From a virus, in the IMG/VR virus record IMGVR_UViG_3300042891_002445, positions 1 through 46,529 of that record: a DNA stretch of 46,529 bases; one strand, written 5' to 3'. A model generated the notes under the pieces. That model made no database searches. It was not told where the DNA came from and worked only from the letters and a program-made list of their open reading frames with translations. The position numbers and the translations under genes are program-made. Positions 18,037 through 23,489 of this stretch are shown here, piece after piece (the stretch's first letter is position 1; every line of letters starts with the position of its first letter).

Positions 18037-18924
18037 ATGGCAGATTTTGCTAGTCTCAGAAACAACCGTCAATCAATCTTTGCTAATCTTAGCAATGAAT
18101 TTAATAAACTCAATACCAACGCTCAAGCAGAAGACGATAGGTTTTGGAAACCTGAAGTAGATAAATCTGGTAACGGCTACGCTGTTATTCGATTTCTTCC
18201 TGCACCTCCAAACGAAGATATTCCGTTTGTTAGGGTTTGGGATCATGGTTTTCAAGGTCCAGGTGGCTGGTATATTGAGAAGTCACTCACTACTATTGGT
18301 CAAAAAGATCCCGTATCCGAGCACAATACGCTTCTTTGGAATTCGGGTATTGAAGCTAATAAAGAGCTAGTACGCAAGCAGAAACGTCGTCTCTCTTACT
18401 ACAGTAACATTTATATTGTTAAAGATCCCGCTCATCCAGAGAATGAAGGTAAAGTCTTTATCTTCAAGTATGGTAAGAAGATCTTTGAGAAGCTTAATGC
18501 AGCTATGAATCCAGAGTTTGAAGATGAAGCATCTATTAACCCTTTTGATCTTTGGGAAGGTGCTAACTTTAAACTTAAGATTCGTAATGTTGAAGGCTAT
18601 CGCAACTATGACAAATCAGAGTTTGATGCTCCAGGTCCGCTTCTTGATTTCGATGATGAGCGACTTGAAAAGATTTGGAAGAGTGAGTACTCATTGCAAG
18701 AGTTTGTGGATCCTAAAAACTTCAAGTCTTATAATGAGCTTAAAGAAAAGCTTGATCGAGTTATTGGCGTCAAAGCTACCTCTAAGCCAAATACTACAGC
18801 AGAGGACAATGTGCCTTGGGAGGATGAAACTCCTGCACGTGGAAAGCAAGTATCAAAGCCTACTGTTGATGTAGACGGCGAAGACGAGGATATTGATTTC
18901 TTTAAGAAGCTTGCTCAAGAGTAA
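18037..18924 (+). CDS. 32: single-stranded DNA-binding protein (T4 gp32-like)
   Basis: 295 residues (T4: 301). It coats single-stranded DNA in replication, repair and recombination. Recognisable are the N-terminal cooperativity segment (SLRNNRQSIFANLSNEF), the core (VIRFLPAPPNEDIPFVRVWDH, then WYIE) and the acidic C-terminal tail (GEDEDIDFFKKLAQE) that recruits partners. The T4 zinc site (three Cys plus His) is absent: residues 83-97 read SLTTIGQKDPVSEHN and the whole protein has no cysteine. Strong ribosome site AAGGAG. Its stop overlaps the end of the convergent hydrolase gene by 10 bases. Confidence 0.95.
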   Translation: MADFASLRNNRQSIFANLSNEFNKLNTNAQAEDDRFWKPEVDKSGNGYAVIRFLPAPPNEDIPFVRVWDHGFQGPGGWYIEKSLTTIGQKDPVSEHNTLLWNSGIEANKELVRKQKRRLSYYSNIYIVKDPAHPENEGKVFIFKYGKKIFEKLNAAMNPEFEDEASINPFDLWEGANFKLKIRNVEGYRNYDKSEFDAPGPLLDFDDERLEKIWKSEYSLQEFVDPKNFKSYNELKEKLDRVIGVKATSKPNTTAEDNVPWEDETPARGKQVSKPTVDVDGEDEDIDFFKKLAQE

Positions 18925-20606
18925 GCTGTACTATGTGTAGTACCAATTAGAAGTGAGCCGCGATCTGCCATCGGATTTGGTATATCTGGTGGCGGATTCA
19001 TACTTCTATCAGCACCTAATTCTGTTAGTCTATTGTTTACTGAGCTGTTTATTACTGGTATATCATATTGTACTGCTTCTGCTTTTTCTGACGCAGCGAT
19101 AATAGTAGCACCTCTCTCTACTGATGGAGAAGGTAGAGGGGTGTATGATAAGGGCTCAGGGGCTTGTACAGCAGCTGTAGGTGGTGTTACAGGTTCTATA
19201 GTCATTGATTGAGCAATTCTAGCTCTTCTTTCAGCTGCTCTAATATCAGCCGATCCAACTGCCCTTGTAACTGCGCCTATATCTGATAATTCTTCTACAC
19301 TCTTTTTCTTATAGTCCAGTAAAAATGCTGGGACTATTTTAGCTGCAATTTCAGGATCGTTAGCTAGGTCTGGATTGTTTACTAAATCTACCCCTATAGC
19401 TTCACCCACTCTTTGATATGCTTCTCTACCTGTAAGCTGTATAAAGCCTCTACCTCTGTATTTGTAAGCATCTCCAGGTTGAATATTACCCATCCTTCCA
19501 CCGTACAACACCTCTGCAACAGCCTCTGGGCCTTTGCTTACTAGCTCTTCAGCCTCTTTGAGTGAAGAAACTCTTACCTTATTTTTTTTCTGCTCAGGCC
19601 CAAACATATCATAAATGTTTTTAGCGGTGTATTTTTCTATTTCTTCAGATCTAGGAACAAAACCACTCTCAGCTTGAACTTGAGCTAGTATATTTTTTAT
19701 GGACGTTTCGTCTGTAATACCTCTTTGCTTTATTTCTTCAACTAACATTTGCTTGTTTAATTCAGCCTCAGGAGCTAGTTGAACTGGACCTGTAAATGTC
19801 GGTGATGGTCTAACGGAAGGTGGCTGCTTCTTTTCTTCCTCTTCAGAATCTTTAAGTATATCTCTTATAAAGTCGGCTACTGTACCACCAATACCAAAAA
19901 TAACAGTGCCCGCTATAATAGCCGGGCTCAAATTTTTAAAAGTGAGTAGACCTGCACCTTTACCGGCAAGACCCTTAAGCCTTTTTCTTCCTGCCTTTAC
20001 CAGAGCAACCATTAAATTAATTGCCTCTAGTATTTTAGCAGCTGCACCAATACCTAATATTGCAGCCAAACCATATCCTAAAGCTTTAAGACTAGAATCC
20101 AACTCTTTAAGTGAAATATCGAAAAGCTTAATATTTCCTAATGCCTCTTTTATACCTTCAGTAAAACCTTTAAAAAAATCTAGCACCTTATCTTTATATT
20201 CTTTTGGTAAAATTAAAAAAGCTATACCAGAAAGCGCCCCTATAACAGCTGCATTAGTAAATAGATCCTTAAGTATTCTACTAAAAGATTCCGTATTCTC
20301 TTTTTCTCGATATCTTAGAGATACATCTGGTCTTATAACCGCCCTGATATTTTCTAATTCTTGCTCACGTTTTATGTATTGTTGTCTTCTCGTTTCATTA
20401 ATAAGACTTAGCAATATAGCATTTAGTTTAGAGAAGTTATTAGTAAGAGACCTTACGCTCTCCGAAATACTATCTAAAGAAGTAACAATCTGCTGCTGTG
20501 ATTCTTCAGCGGTCTTAGGGGATTTATTTTTTGCTGAAAGTCTTATAACAGTGTTATCTGCTATAATTTTCTCATTAATTTTTTTAAAGGTAGATTCTTT
20601 TGCCAT
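18915..20606 (-). CDS. tail protein with C-terminal GH19-type lysozyme domain
   Basis: 563 residues. The N-terminal half has a coiled coil (about 36-90) and hydrophobic segments near 118-134, 178-204 and 228-246. After a Pro-rich linker (260-280) comes a GH19/chitinase-like lysozyme domain (about 285-468) with NILAQVQAESGF (catalytic Glu near 313) and YKYRGRGFIQLTGREAYQRV, the best conserved family block. It should locally cut peptidoglycan during DNA entry; in this phage gp5 lacks the lysozyme domain that T4 carries there. Its N-terminal architecture resembles the preceding tape-measure-like protein. Its ATG follows that gene's TAA directly. Confidence 0.78.
   Translation of the reverse strand: MAKESTFKKINEKIIADNTVIRLSAKNKSPKTAEESQQQIVTSLDSISESVRSLTNNFSKLNAILLSLINETRRQQYIKREQELENIRAVIRPDVSLRYREKENTESFSRILKDLFTNAAVIGALSGIAFLILPKEYKDKVLDFFKGFTEGIKEALGNIKLFDISLKELDSSLKALGYGLAAILGIGAAAKILEAINLMVALVKAGRKRLKGLAGKGAGLLTFKNLSPAIIAGTVIFGIGGTVADFIRDILKDSEEEEKKQPPSVRPSPTFTGPVQLAPEAELNKQMLVEEIKQRGITDETSIKNILAQVQAESGFVPRSEEIEKYTAKNIYDMFGPEQKKNKVRVSSLKEAEELVSKGPEAVAEVLYGGRMGNIQPGDAYKYRGRGFIQLTGREAYQRVGEAIGVDLVNNPDLANDPEIAAKIVPAFLLDYKKKSVEELSDIGAVTRAVGSADIRAAERRARIAQSMTIEPVTPPTAAVQAPEPLSYTPLPSPSVERGATIIAASEKAEAVQYDIPVINSSVNNRLTELGADRSMNPPPDIPNPMADRGSLLIGTTHSTAYS
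18928..18943 (+). terminator. hairpin between convergent gp32 and hydrolase genes
   Basis: GTACTA (18928-18933), loop TGTG, TAGTAC (18938-18943): a perfect 6-bp stem four bases after the gp32 stop, inside the last codons of the opposing gene. No T-run follows, so it may protect mRNA ends rather than terminate. Being palindromic it could act on both transcripts. Confidence 0.35.
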
Positions 20607-22616
20607 TTATCCGCCCGGTGCAATTACTATTGTATTATTCATTACATTATTATTAATACTTTGCACTCTTAATAGTCTTCTCATCTCTTTTAACTCATAA
20701 GATTTATCATCCAACTGTTCACCAGTTTTTTTACTGAAAAAACTACTTAACCATTCTTTTATGTCTTTATTAGACTCTGAAAAAATATTACCTTTACTAT
20801 CTTTAAGTTGTTGTTGCTTTTCACCTAAAGGTGTGTACTGGTCTCTTGGCAGAGCACTTTCTACTCTAAATTTTTCTTCTGCGTTTAAAAAATTAACTAG
20901 ATCTTTATATCTAGCAGTGTCTTCTTCTATCTTTCTTTTTCTGTTATATTCGTCAACCTTCTTTTGTTCTTTATCTGATAAGATAGGAGGATTTTCGTCT
21001 GTAGTGGGTGTAACAGCAGCTACCATTTCACCACTAAAGGAAAGACCTTCAATTTCTTTTCTATTTCTTTGTTTTATATCTTCGTCATTATTTAAAACTT
21101 TCCAAGTGTTATATAGATTTTCTCTAGTCAAAAAACCAAAAGATAATTCGTTAGCTAGATTAATTAAAAATGTTTGAACAATAGATTCACTTTCCCTTAT
21201 TTCATCGTTAAATAAATCACTAACTGTACTGAAAGTAGCACCTATCAATGGCCATGCTAAAAATGCTAGAGCTCTTCCTACCGCTGATGTTAGCTTTGAT
21301 GCAATACCAGCAGCACCGGTAGCTGCTACTCCATCTAGCACACTTCTAATTTTCGAAACTCTATTATTATGTGCATCGATTTCTGCTTGAAGTTTTAATT
21401 TACTTTCTTCTAATTTAATTCGTTTTTCATCAAGAAGTGCTTGTCTATCGTCTAAAGAAGAGTTTCTACTTATAAGCTCGGATTGTCTTTTATCTAACTC
21501 AGCTGTTCTTTGCTTAAATGTTTCTTCTTGCGCTATCCTATTTTGCTCTAAGGCTTTAATCTTTTTAGTGTTTTCTTCCTCTAATTGCTTTACCTTATTG
21601 CTATAGTCTTCATCAAGTTGATTTAATTTTTCTTTTAATTGAGTATCAATTATTTCTTTTTGTGCTCTTGCTAATGTTTCAGCACTAGCTTTATCTGTAG
21701 TTACTCTTTGAGCTAAGATGTCGGCTGTCTGTCTGGCTTTTTCAGCCTGTCTAGCAGCATCGACTTTGCTTATGCCTCTTTGTTCTCTTAATTCAGCAGC
21801 TCTTTGACTTGCTTGCACGGTCGCTCTTTCTTTTGCTAGAGCTTCTCTTTCACTTGCAACCTTAACTTTCTCTTCCTGAAGAGCTCTTTCTTCACGTATT
21901 CTTTTTTGTTCTATATTTGCAGCATTTCGTTGTTGATTTAATTCTTTTTGTTGTAAGTTCAGTCTTTGTTCGTTTAATCTAATCCTTTCTTTTTTTATTC
22001 TTTCGTAATGAGCTCTGATCTTTTCATTTTCTGCATTTATATCTTTAGCAGTTTTACTTAATGCAGTACCTTCATCATCATTTAATGCAGATAAAAGTCC
22101 AGTTAATATTGCTAATTGTTTTATTAAATTAATAGTATTTTTAACAGTACTTAAAAGTTTTGTAACAATAAAAATTCCAGCAACAATTTTGGAAATGTTT
22201 CCAAACACAGTAATAATATCATTAACTTTTATATTAAATTCGTTAAGCTTTTTAACAGCGTCAGTTCCAATAAGACCTTCTATAAATTTAACTAGGTATT
22301 CCCTACTTTCTTTTGAAAGAGCAGATACCACCAAGCCAGCAACAACTGTAGCAAGCAATGCATTGTTAACCTTAAACTTATTTTTGCTATCTTTTTCTTT
22401 TAAACTAGTAATTGATTGCTTTTCAACAGGAATAGATGTGTCTTGTTGTTTTCTTTGTTCTAATAAAACGGTCAATAGATTAATTGTCTTAAGGGATGAA
22501 TTATTAGCTAATCTAAGATCTTTATCAACCTTACTAAGCTTGGTATTAGCTAGGGTAAAAAATCCTATGCTTGAAACTGCAGCATTTGTTAGCTCGGCTA
22601 ATTGCTTATCATCCAT
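20607..22616 (-). CDS. tape-measure-like coiled-coil protein (gp29-like role)
   Basis: 669 residues (T4 gp29: 590). Hydrophobic segments near 85-100, 136-155 and 165-178 are followed by a long uninterrupted charged coiled coil (about 190-425, with KERIRLNEQRLNLQQKELNQ-type heptads) and another hydrophobic region (about 437-475). Length, composition and position right after the gp26 frameshift region fit the tail tape measure that sets tail length and lines the tube. At about 1.5 angstrom per residue this gives a T4-sized tail (rough inference). I cannot align it to T4 gp29 directly. Its ATG overlaps the end of the -1 frame extension by 8 bases. Confidence 0.65.
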   Translation of the reverse strand: MDDKQLAELTNAAVSSIGFFTLANTKLSKVDKDLRLANNSSLKTINLLTVLLEQRKQQDTSIPVEKQSITSLKEKDSKNKFKVNNALLATVVAGLVVSALSKESREYLVKFIEGLIGTDAVKKLNEFNIKVNDIITVFGNISKIVAGIFIVTKLLSTVKNTINLIKQLAILTGLLSALNDDEGTALSKTAKDINAENEKIRAHYERIKKERIRLNEQRLNLQQKELNQQRNAANIEQKRIREERALQEEKVKVASEREALAKERATVQASQRAAELREQRGISKVDAARQAEKARQTADILAQRVTTDKASAETLARAQKEIIDTQLKEKLNQLDEDYSNKVKQLEEENTKKIKALEQNRIAQEETFKQRTAELDKRQSELISRNSSLDDRQALLDEKRIKLEESKLKLQAEIDAHNNRVSKIRSVLDGVAATGAAGIASKLTSAVGRALAFLAWPLIGATFSTVSDLFNDEIRESESIVQTFLINLANELSFGFLTRENLYNTWKVLNNDEDIKQRNRKEIEGLSFSGEMVAAVTPTTDENPPILSDKEQKKVDEYNRKRKIEEDTARYKDLVNFLNAEEKFRVESALPRDQYTPLGEKQQQLKDSKGNIFSESNKDIKEWLSSFFSKKTGEQLDDKSYELKEMRRLLRVQSINNNVMNNTIVIAPGG

Positions 22617-23489
22617 GCTGTCTAATTCTTTCCGTTTCTCTTTCTAGATAATCTTTAAGTAAGTCTACGTAGAGGTCTCTTTCGTAAGGAATCATATTTT
22701 CTATCTCTGTTACAGACCATTTATGATGCTGAGCCAGGCTAAAGATTAACTTATAATAATTAGCTAGATTATTATGACTCAGCCCAACGTAAAAAAATCA
22801 TTAAGAGTAGATAAAGTTATTACTTTTTCTTTTCCAAAACTATTTTGATATTTTACTTCATAATGTAGCTTTGGCATAGTAGTAAAAAATTCCTGGACTT
22901 TTTTAAAAGTTTTTACATCTAAGTCTTGTAAAAACTCATCTAACTGCTCCCTTGTATAATCGCTTGCCAAATAGTGATTGTCTTTGTCGTAGATATAATC
23001 AATACAATTTCTAAAGATACTAAAAAATAAATCTGCTTCGTTATCTACATTATAAATATCAAAAGTTATACTGGCTTTTGGATATTTTAATTTAATACCT
23101 AAATTATCGTTTATACTTATATTATTTTTATGCTTCTTATCTGTTTTAATAGATACATCATCAAGATTAACTTCCACATCATACGTCTTACTATCTTCTA
23201 AATCTTTATACGTAAGTTTTATAATGTTATTAACAGACTTAGCTCTTATTTTTATAAAAAGATATTCTAGGTCTATAGTTGCAAGCTCATCAACGTCAAC
23301 GTCTTCAGTGATTATACAATTGTGTATAACTTGCTTAATTGCGTTTATGATTTCTGCAGAATCTTCACCTTGTAAGGCGGTCAGTAAGATTTTTTCTTCT
23401 TTAACTAAAAAAGGTCTAAACTTTATCGTTTTATTATTAGACGGTAAAGTTAATTCAAATATAGGATGTTCAATTTTCGGCAATTTCAT
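22609..23489 (-). CDS. gp26 -1 frameshift product (predicted chaperone fusion)
   Basis: Predicted second product of gene 26, 293 residues. Residues 1-233 are read in the gp26 frame, then a -1 slip on T TTT TTT (22797-22791) continues as YVGLSHNNLA for 60 more codons to TGA 22611-22609. The added part (NYYKLIFSLAQHHKWSVTEI, then ENMIPYERDLYVDLL) is compact and helical. It has no ATG, GTG or TTG start before the ATG at 22695, and its frame opens exactly at the slippery site. This mirrors the lambda G/GT chaperones, which are made just before the tape measure in the same way. Protein evidence is not available here. Confidence 0.6.
22728..22797 (-). promoter_or_regulatory. -1 ribosomal frameshift site with stimulatory structure
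   Basis: Minus strand: slippery T TTT TTT at 22797-22791 in gp26 register, a 7-base spacer, then arm GCTGAG (22783-22778) pairing with CTCAGC (22733-22728). Inside lies a second perfect stem ATAATAAT (22775-22768) with ATTATTAT (22760-22753) around loop CTAGCTA. Slippery site, spacer length and downstream structure all match known -1 frameshift signals. Confidence 0.65.
22779..23489 (-). CDS. 26: baseplate hub subunit (T4 gp26-like)
   Basis: 236 residues (T4: 208). It matches the T4 baseplate hub/assembly family: FRPFLVKEEKILLTALQGED near the N-terminus, a central TYDVEVNLDDV, and LDVKTFKKVQEFFTTMPKLH near the end. It is needed for hub assembly and, by position before the tape measure, may act as a tail-assembly chaperone. 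The last codons GAT TTT TTT ACG contain a slippery heptamer in the correct register. The ribosome site GAGAG precedes the ATG at 23489. Confidence 0.82.
   Translation of the reverse strand: MKLPKIEHPIFELTLPSNNKTIKFRPFLVKEEKILLTALQGEDSAEIINAIKQVIHNCIITEDVDVDELATIDLEYLFIKIRAKSVNNIIKLTYKDLEDSKTYDVEVNLDDVSIKTDKKHKNNISINDNLGIKLKYPKASITFDIYNVDNEADLFFSIFRNCIDYIYDKDNHYLASDYTREQLDEFLQDLDVKTFKKVQEFFTTMPKLHYEVKYQNSFGKEKVITLSTLNDFFTLG

Follow-up and report, generated by a model that had tools for sequence, protein, structure and literature searches.

The frameshift that yields tail assembly chaperones is conserved in phages, and lambda gpG/gpGT is the classical example (Levin 1993; Xu, Hendrix and Duda 2004; reviewed in PMC5009743). 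That 2016 recoding review lists T4 as the exception to G/GT frameshifting. Assembly of T4 needs gp51, which the finished particle does not contain, and both it and gp26 are counted among the hub assembly chaperones (PMC3004832). According to citations in PMC10885494 and PMC12846349, the tail assembly chaperone role in T4-like phages and T4's use of two genes for it were reported by Vladimirov, Gautam and Davidson (2022); a 2025 paper attributes to them the finding of poly-T signals for frameshifting in T4-like TAC-N genes (PMC12846349). In phage Adele and the families Vandenendeviridae and Andersonviridae, a frameshift occurs at GTTTTT in the tail chaperone genes (PMC12846349). Here we describe gene 26 of the virus record IMGVR_UViG_3300042891_002445 (positions 1 to 46,529, the whole stretch being called the window below). 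Comparison with related loci makes it very probable that this gene is decoded by a programmed −1 frameshift into gp26 and a gp26-51 fusion, a chaperone pair of the lambda G/GT type. A first, sequence-only reading of the window had proposed this pair and knew of no such case described for T4 gene 26; judged by the two papers that cite Vladimirov et al. (2022), the latter remark is out of date, and the phenomenon is largely known already.

The window is a 46.5-kb fragment of a T4-like, Kyanoviridae-like virus and also encodes gp32, a gp6-like protein, PhoH and ribonucleotide reductase; no tRNA genes were found in it. In profile searches gp26 matches PF12322 (E=4e-58) and phrog_150 (1e-63). The 3′ end of the gene reads AAT GAT TTT TTT ACG TTG GGC TGA, which places a slippery heptamer in register over the two Phe codons (FF) (Table 1). 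A TGA of the −1 frame lies directly 5′ of the heptamer, so an upstream start cannot supply this frame. Past it, 62 codons of the −1 frame (60 of them after FF) are free of stops up to the TGA at 22611-22609, and the frame overlaps the next gene, whose ATG is at 22616, by 8 nt. The earliest ATG, GTG or TTG in this frame is found 32 codons past FF. As in lambda, the C-terminal part has no start of its own. Unlike lambda, where the slippery heptamer is G GGA AAG, the site here is T TTT TTT and the chaperone domain is PF12322. The sequence-only reading had described the in-register heptamer, the TGA before it, 60 sense codons to 22609, the lack of a start until residue 33, the end 8 bases inside the next gene and an outer stem GCTGAG/CTCAGC 7 bases past the heptamer. 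The sequence agrees with all of this, including every coordinate, and the stem extends to 9 bp in full.

The slip site is conserved. A heptamer by itself is commonplace, with 96 in-register examples in the larger open reading frames (ORFs) of the window, and its frequency alone is uninformative; across the compared sequences it is conservation that surpasses chance. We gathered 25 close and 80 wider IMG/VR loci (marine contigs) plus isolate phages, and the junction is XXT TTT TTY in 116/116 loci, which are not independent of each other, with one TTG variant in Rhizobium AF3. The heptamer that the sequence-only reading saw in the window is kept throughout this set. The residue preceding FF may be Ser, Asp, Asn, Ala or Thr, and T is invariably the last base of its codon. 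All 116 loci have TTT as the first Phe codon, while other Phe codons there are TTC in 30% of cases. The other Phe-Phe dipeptides in these gp26 genes serve as an internal control that tells codon-level constraint apart from protein-level constraint, and none of these 116 dipeptides has T TTT TT. The context never occurs at these other pairs, as though avoided. The loci with the heptamer span phages of cyanobacteria, pelagiphages and phages of Rhizobium, Sinorhizobium, Caulobacter, Stenotrophomonas, Pseudomonas, Aeromonas and Vibrio, and the Straboviridae KVP40, Aeh1, PX29, Cronobacter S13 and Vibrio VmeM-32 likewise carry it. Slippage of RNA polymerase on the T run, giving transcripts with an added U, would yield the same fusion protein, and the run in the window is 7 T long. 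However, 81 of the 116 loci have the form T TTT TTC with only 6 T, which is short for transcriptional slippage. The run is also always phased as XXT TTT TTY and is accompanied by downstream stems or upstream Shine-Dalgarno-like motifs for which slippage by a polymerase would have no need, and we consider this explanation highly improbable.

The −1 frame is homologous to gp51. Its peptide matches phrog_634, the gp51 family annotated as 'baseplate hub assembly catalyst', with E=1.2e-24, and 48/48 aligned −1 peptides match the same family. A weak match to the end of phrog_150 (gp26) is presumably owed to long fused members in that profile. In total, 528 phage records are matched by the −1 peptide. 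An AlphaFold2 (AF2) model of the extension is helical with a predicted local distance difference test score (pLDDT) of 82, and Foldseek returns weak matches only; searching PDB sequences with profiles of gp26 and of the T domain gave nothing. The frame is unbroken in all complete loci. Past the gp26 stop, the pairwise ratio of non-synonymous to synonymous substitution rates (dN/dS) has a median of 0.28, and 0 of 1441 pairs reach 1 or more. Differences in this frame are concentrated at third codon positions (16248, against 9315 and 4750 at the other two). By these sequence measures the frame is under purifying selection; the neutral drift that would have spoken against the sequence-only reading is not seen. 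The cyanophage and vibriophage short gp51 of Sullivan et al. (2010) is the same ORF of roughly 60 codons, noted there as similar to the T4 gp51 C-terminus. It was read as a reduced gene, about 20% of T4 length in cyanophages and missing about 200 aa, gp51 was scored as missing in Aeh1, and the word frameshift is absent from the paper (PMC3037559). That description, with an ORF of just 62 codons and no start, could suit an unexpressed, decayed remnant of a longer gp51 next to an incidental heptamer. Such a remnant is hardly credible: it is contradicted by the strong purifying selection, by conservation across very divergent phages, by frames that are intact in all complete loci and by the invariant slippery codons.

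There is no plausible start for this frame in the window. Within 12 codons of the heptamer, ATG, GTG and TTG are all absent in 36/111 complete loci, the window included. The start-less frame of the sequence-only reading therefore holds for these loci and does not hold for many relatives, which have a nearby ATG, GTG or TTG. In the 75 loci that do have a nearby start, no Shine-Dalgarno-like motif precedes it at the usual spacing. Translation of gp51 as a separate small gene, re-initiated after gp26 at an overlapping TAATG or TGATG or at a nearby start with no fusion made, has to be weighed here. Records annotate gp51 as its own coding sequence, and TGATG or TAATG occurs at the gp26 stop in AF3, D491s, Mendera, Cr30, phiM12 and KVP40. 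However, the first possible start in the window lies within the conserved core of the domain. A separate gene also leaves unexplained the invariance of T TTT TTY, the conservation of FF-x-x-x-L-S-H upstream of the nearby start codons in relatives and the in-frame fusion found in T4. With the start-less loci and the missing Shine-Dalgarno-like motifs added, we regard separate initiation as improbable, and frameshifting remains the preferred reading.

The outer stem downstream of the heptamer is conserved within class A, the group of 27 sequences to which the window belongs. In the window it has a minimum free energy (MFE) of −19.2 kcal/mol with z = −3.2. In class A its nine positions are paired in 90.1% of cells; a slid register gives no more than 36.6%. 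Four of the nine pairs are changed on both sides, and the covariation score is reached by 0/500 shuffles. The paired-base changes looked for by the sequence-only reading are thus found in the outer stem of the window's group. The inner AT stem that it had also proposed, ATAATAAT/ATTATTAT, can be drawn with 8/8 pairs in the window only and lies outside the MFE fold, and we reject it as a conserved element. An Rfam search around the slip site gave nothing above threshold. In S-PM2 a 13-bp hairpin of its own is found a few bases 3′ of the gp26 stop. In 77/81 of the T TTT TTC relatives, a Shine-Dalgarno-like motif (GAGGG or GAAGG) precedes the heptamer by 6-18 nt and lies within the codons of a conserved Leu-Glu-Gly. 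As a stimulator in stem-less relatives this motif is suggestive only, because the Glu-Gly residues force it.

T4 and its close relatives offer a contrast with this arrangement. In T4, gp51 is built of a PF12322 domain (residues 1-201, 3.9e-52) and, after it, the same C-terminal piece as the −1 frame of the window encodes, and gp26 is PF12322 alone. From this make-up, the gp26-51 fusion would correspond to T4 gp51, and gp26 without the extension to T4 gp26. Two genes, a short 26 and a long 51, are present in T4, Acinetobacter KARL-1, Aeromonas 31, FL15 (RB49-like), Proteus phiP4-3, Erwinia FBB1 and RB43, and the heptamer is found in 0/7 of their gene 26 ends. The T4 gp26 gene ends GAG TTC TTT GAG, whereas the window gene would serve both forms by the proposed slippage. 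In RB43 (L117:2501-3794) the long gp51-type and short gp26-type genes are adjacent in tandem on one strand; in T4 and the other two-gene phages they are divergent. No second copy of gp26 and no full-length gene with PF12322 plus the tail, as in the T4-type layout, was found within the 46.5-kb fragment, which has a single gp26; a copy beyond the fragment is possible. A tree of PF12322 separates a long gp51 clade (100/100) from a frameshift-type clade that includes two relatives with no heptamer (100/98), and it needs three label changes, the minimum. With its root not fixed and its branches long, the tree fits one duplication replacing the frameshift, the order of events being our reconstruction.

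In several phages the −1 frame that follows T TTT TTC encodes a gp51 which the records leave unannotated: Aeh1 (L154:1577-1756), Cronobacter S13 (L155:2217-2393) and the Aeromonas phages AS-zj and CC2 (L149/L150). Beyond the gp26 stop they lack a start codon over 50-89 nt. In Aeh1 the interval is 50 nt, and its start-less −1 frame matches phrog_634 at 2e-14. Loss of the heptamer with the frame still open is not seen in general; the exceptions are Ackermannviridae-type and Vibrio D506-type relatives. In the Ackermannviridae-type phages (L116:2501-3462, L131-L148) a gp26-like gene is followed by a T-like domain in the −1 frame (phrog_9633 8.9e-31, phrog_634 2.6e-4) and there is no canonical heptamer. 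Their junction GAR ATT TTC ATY TAA is conserved and most are start-less for about 32 nt, which suggests that they use another kind of slip site. In Vibrio phage D506 (L119) the T-like −1 ORF comes directly after CTT TTC AAG TAATGG, an overlapping stop-start with no heptamer, and re-initiation is as likely there as a frameshift. It is an evenly balanced judgement whether a frameshifted 26/51 is the general T4-like state outside Tevenvirinae-like lineages, with a single duplication in the T4 line giving separate genes before the heptamer was lost, the stimulator switched between lineages and the Ackermannviridae site non-canonical.

In the mechanism that we propose, most ribosomes would stop at the 0-frame TGA and release gp26. 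A minority, with two Phe tRNAs on U UUU UUU and delayed by the stem 7 nt downstream, would slip back one base and append 60 residues, the gp51 domain, to give the gp26-51 fusion. If the pair works like lambda gpG/gpGT, the tape measure protein encoded by the next gene might be coated by gp26 in many copies and the fusion in few, and the gp51 part of the fusion might recruit the tail-tube or hub protein. T4 and close relatives obtain both products from a pair of paralogous genes, 26 for the short form and 51 for the long. We infer the slippage itself, its efficiency and the division of labour between the two forms, and assign their G/GT roles by analogy. The pairing of gp26 with its fusion proposed by the sequence-only reading gains strong comparative support from the heptamer, the start-less conserved frame, the compensated stem and the contrast with the duplicated genes of T4.

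Several observations weigh against this reading. An ATG lies within 12 codons of the heptamer in 58/111 loci, so that many relatives have one near the gp26 stop, and a separately initiated short gp51 is possible there. RNAalifold gives no consensus fold on all 27 class-A sequences and returns the exact 9-bp stem on 22 only, with five stem-breaking sequences set aside. The stem also lies over conserved codons (GLSH, AQHH), and coding constraint contributes to its conservation. The likeness of gp26 to known tail chaperones in Foldseek has E about 1: for the AlphaFold2 model of gp26 (pLDDT 89), the highest-probability PDB match is the HK97 tail assembly chaperone 2ob9 (probability 0.72, root-mean-square deviation 3.3 over 60 columns, E=0.94), which as a hint of a chaperone fold is only suggestive. 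Finally, the assignment of the next gene as a tape measure follows from its position.

This next gene encodes a helical, coiled-coil protein with hydrophobic segments and is a tape-measure candidate by position and make-up. Profile searches gave no family match for the 669-aa ORF, phmmer and jackhmmer gave no homology to tape measures, and comparison with the genes at the same position in relatives gave no sequence similarity. BLAST matches arise only with composition correction off and are not evidence. The ORF that follows the −1 frame varies extremely between relatives, and no similarity is detected even to that of L030, a relative with a gp26 60% identical to the window's. A tape measure is annotated in Cr30 and a tape-measure-like gene is found in phiM12, where one small gene intervenes. 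Adjoining the tape-measure candidate, the second gene downstream encodes a GH19/chitinase-like (endolysin) domain after hydrophobic segments (PF00182 6.7e-9; phrog_181 1.6e-36).

Table 1. Features of the gene 26 region, in coordinates of the window
Feature	Position	Strand	Description and basis
Gene 26	22779..23489	minus	236 aa, PF12322; short form, G / TAC-N equivalent; ORF call
−1 frame stop TGA	22798..22800	minus	directly 5′ of heptamer; sequence
Slippery heptamer T TTT TTT	22791..22797	minus	0-frame GAT TTT TTT; sequence; XXT TTT TTY/G in 116/116 loci
−1 frame extension	22609..22797	minus	62 codons + TGA, gp51-like T domain (FFYVGLSHNNLANYYKLIFSLAQHHKWSVTEIENMIPYERDLYVDLLKDYLERETERIRQHG); phrog_634, dN/dS, AF2
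Stem 5′ arm	22775..22783	minus	GCTGAGTCA, 7 nt past heptamer; class-A pairing and compensated pairs
Stem 3′ arm	22728..22736	minus	TGGCTCAGC; same stem analysis
Next gene	20607..22616	minus	669 aa; tape-measure candidate
Second gene downstream	18915-20606		GH19/chitinase-like (endolysin) domain

The Vandenendeviridae and Andersonviridae are phage families other than that of the window, and they share with it a poly-T slip site and a conserved −1 frame that annotations show as a gene of its own or leave intergenic. Not clearly in the literature that was available to read are the change of stimulator between lineages, the recovery of gp51 in Aeh1 and S13 and the Ackermannviridae variant without a canonical heptamer. 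The proposed frameshift would account for the apparent truncation or absence of gp51 in most marine T4-like phages: the fusion has been split into two genes or overlooked by annotation. It would alter the annotation of hundreds of phage records, those matched by the −1 peptide. The frameshifting relatives and the two-gene layout of T4 would together form a natural experiment, in which a programmed frameshift was replaced by gene duplication.
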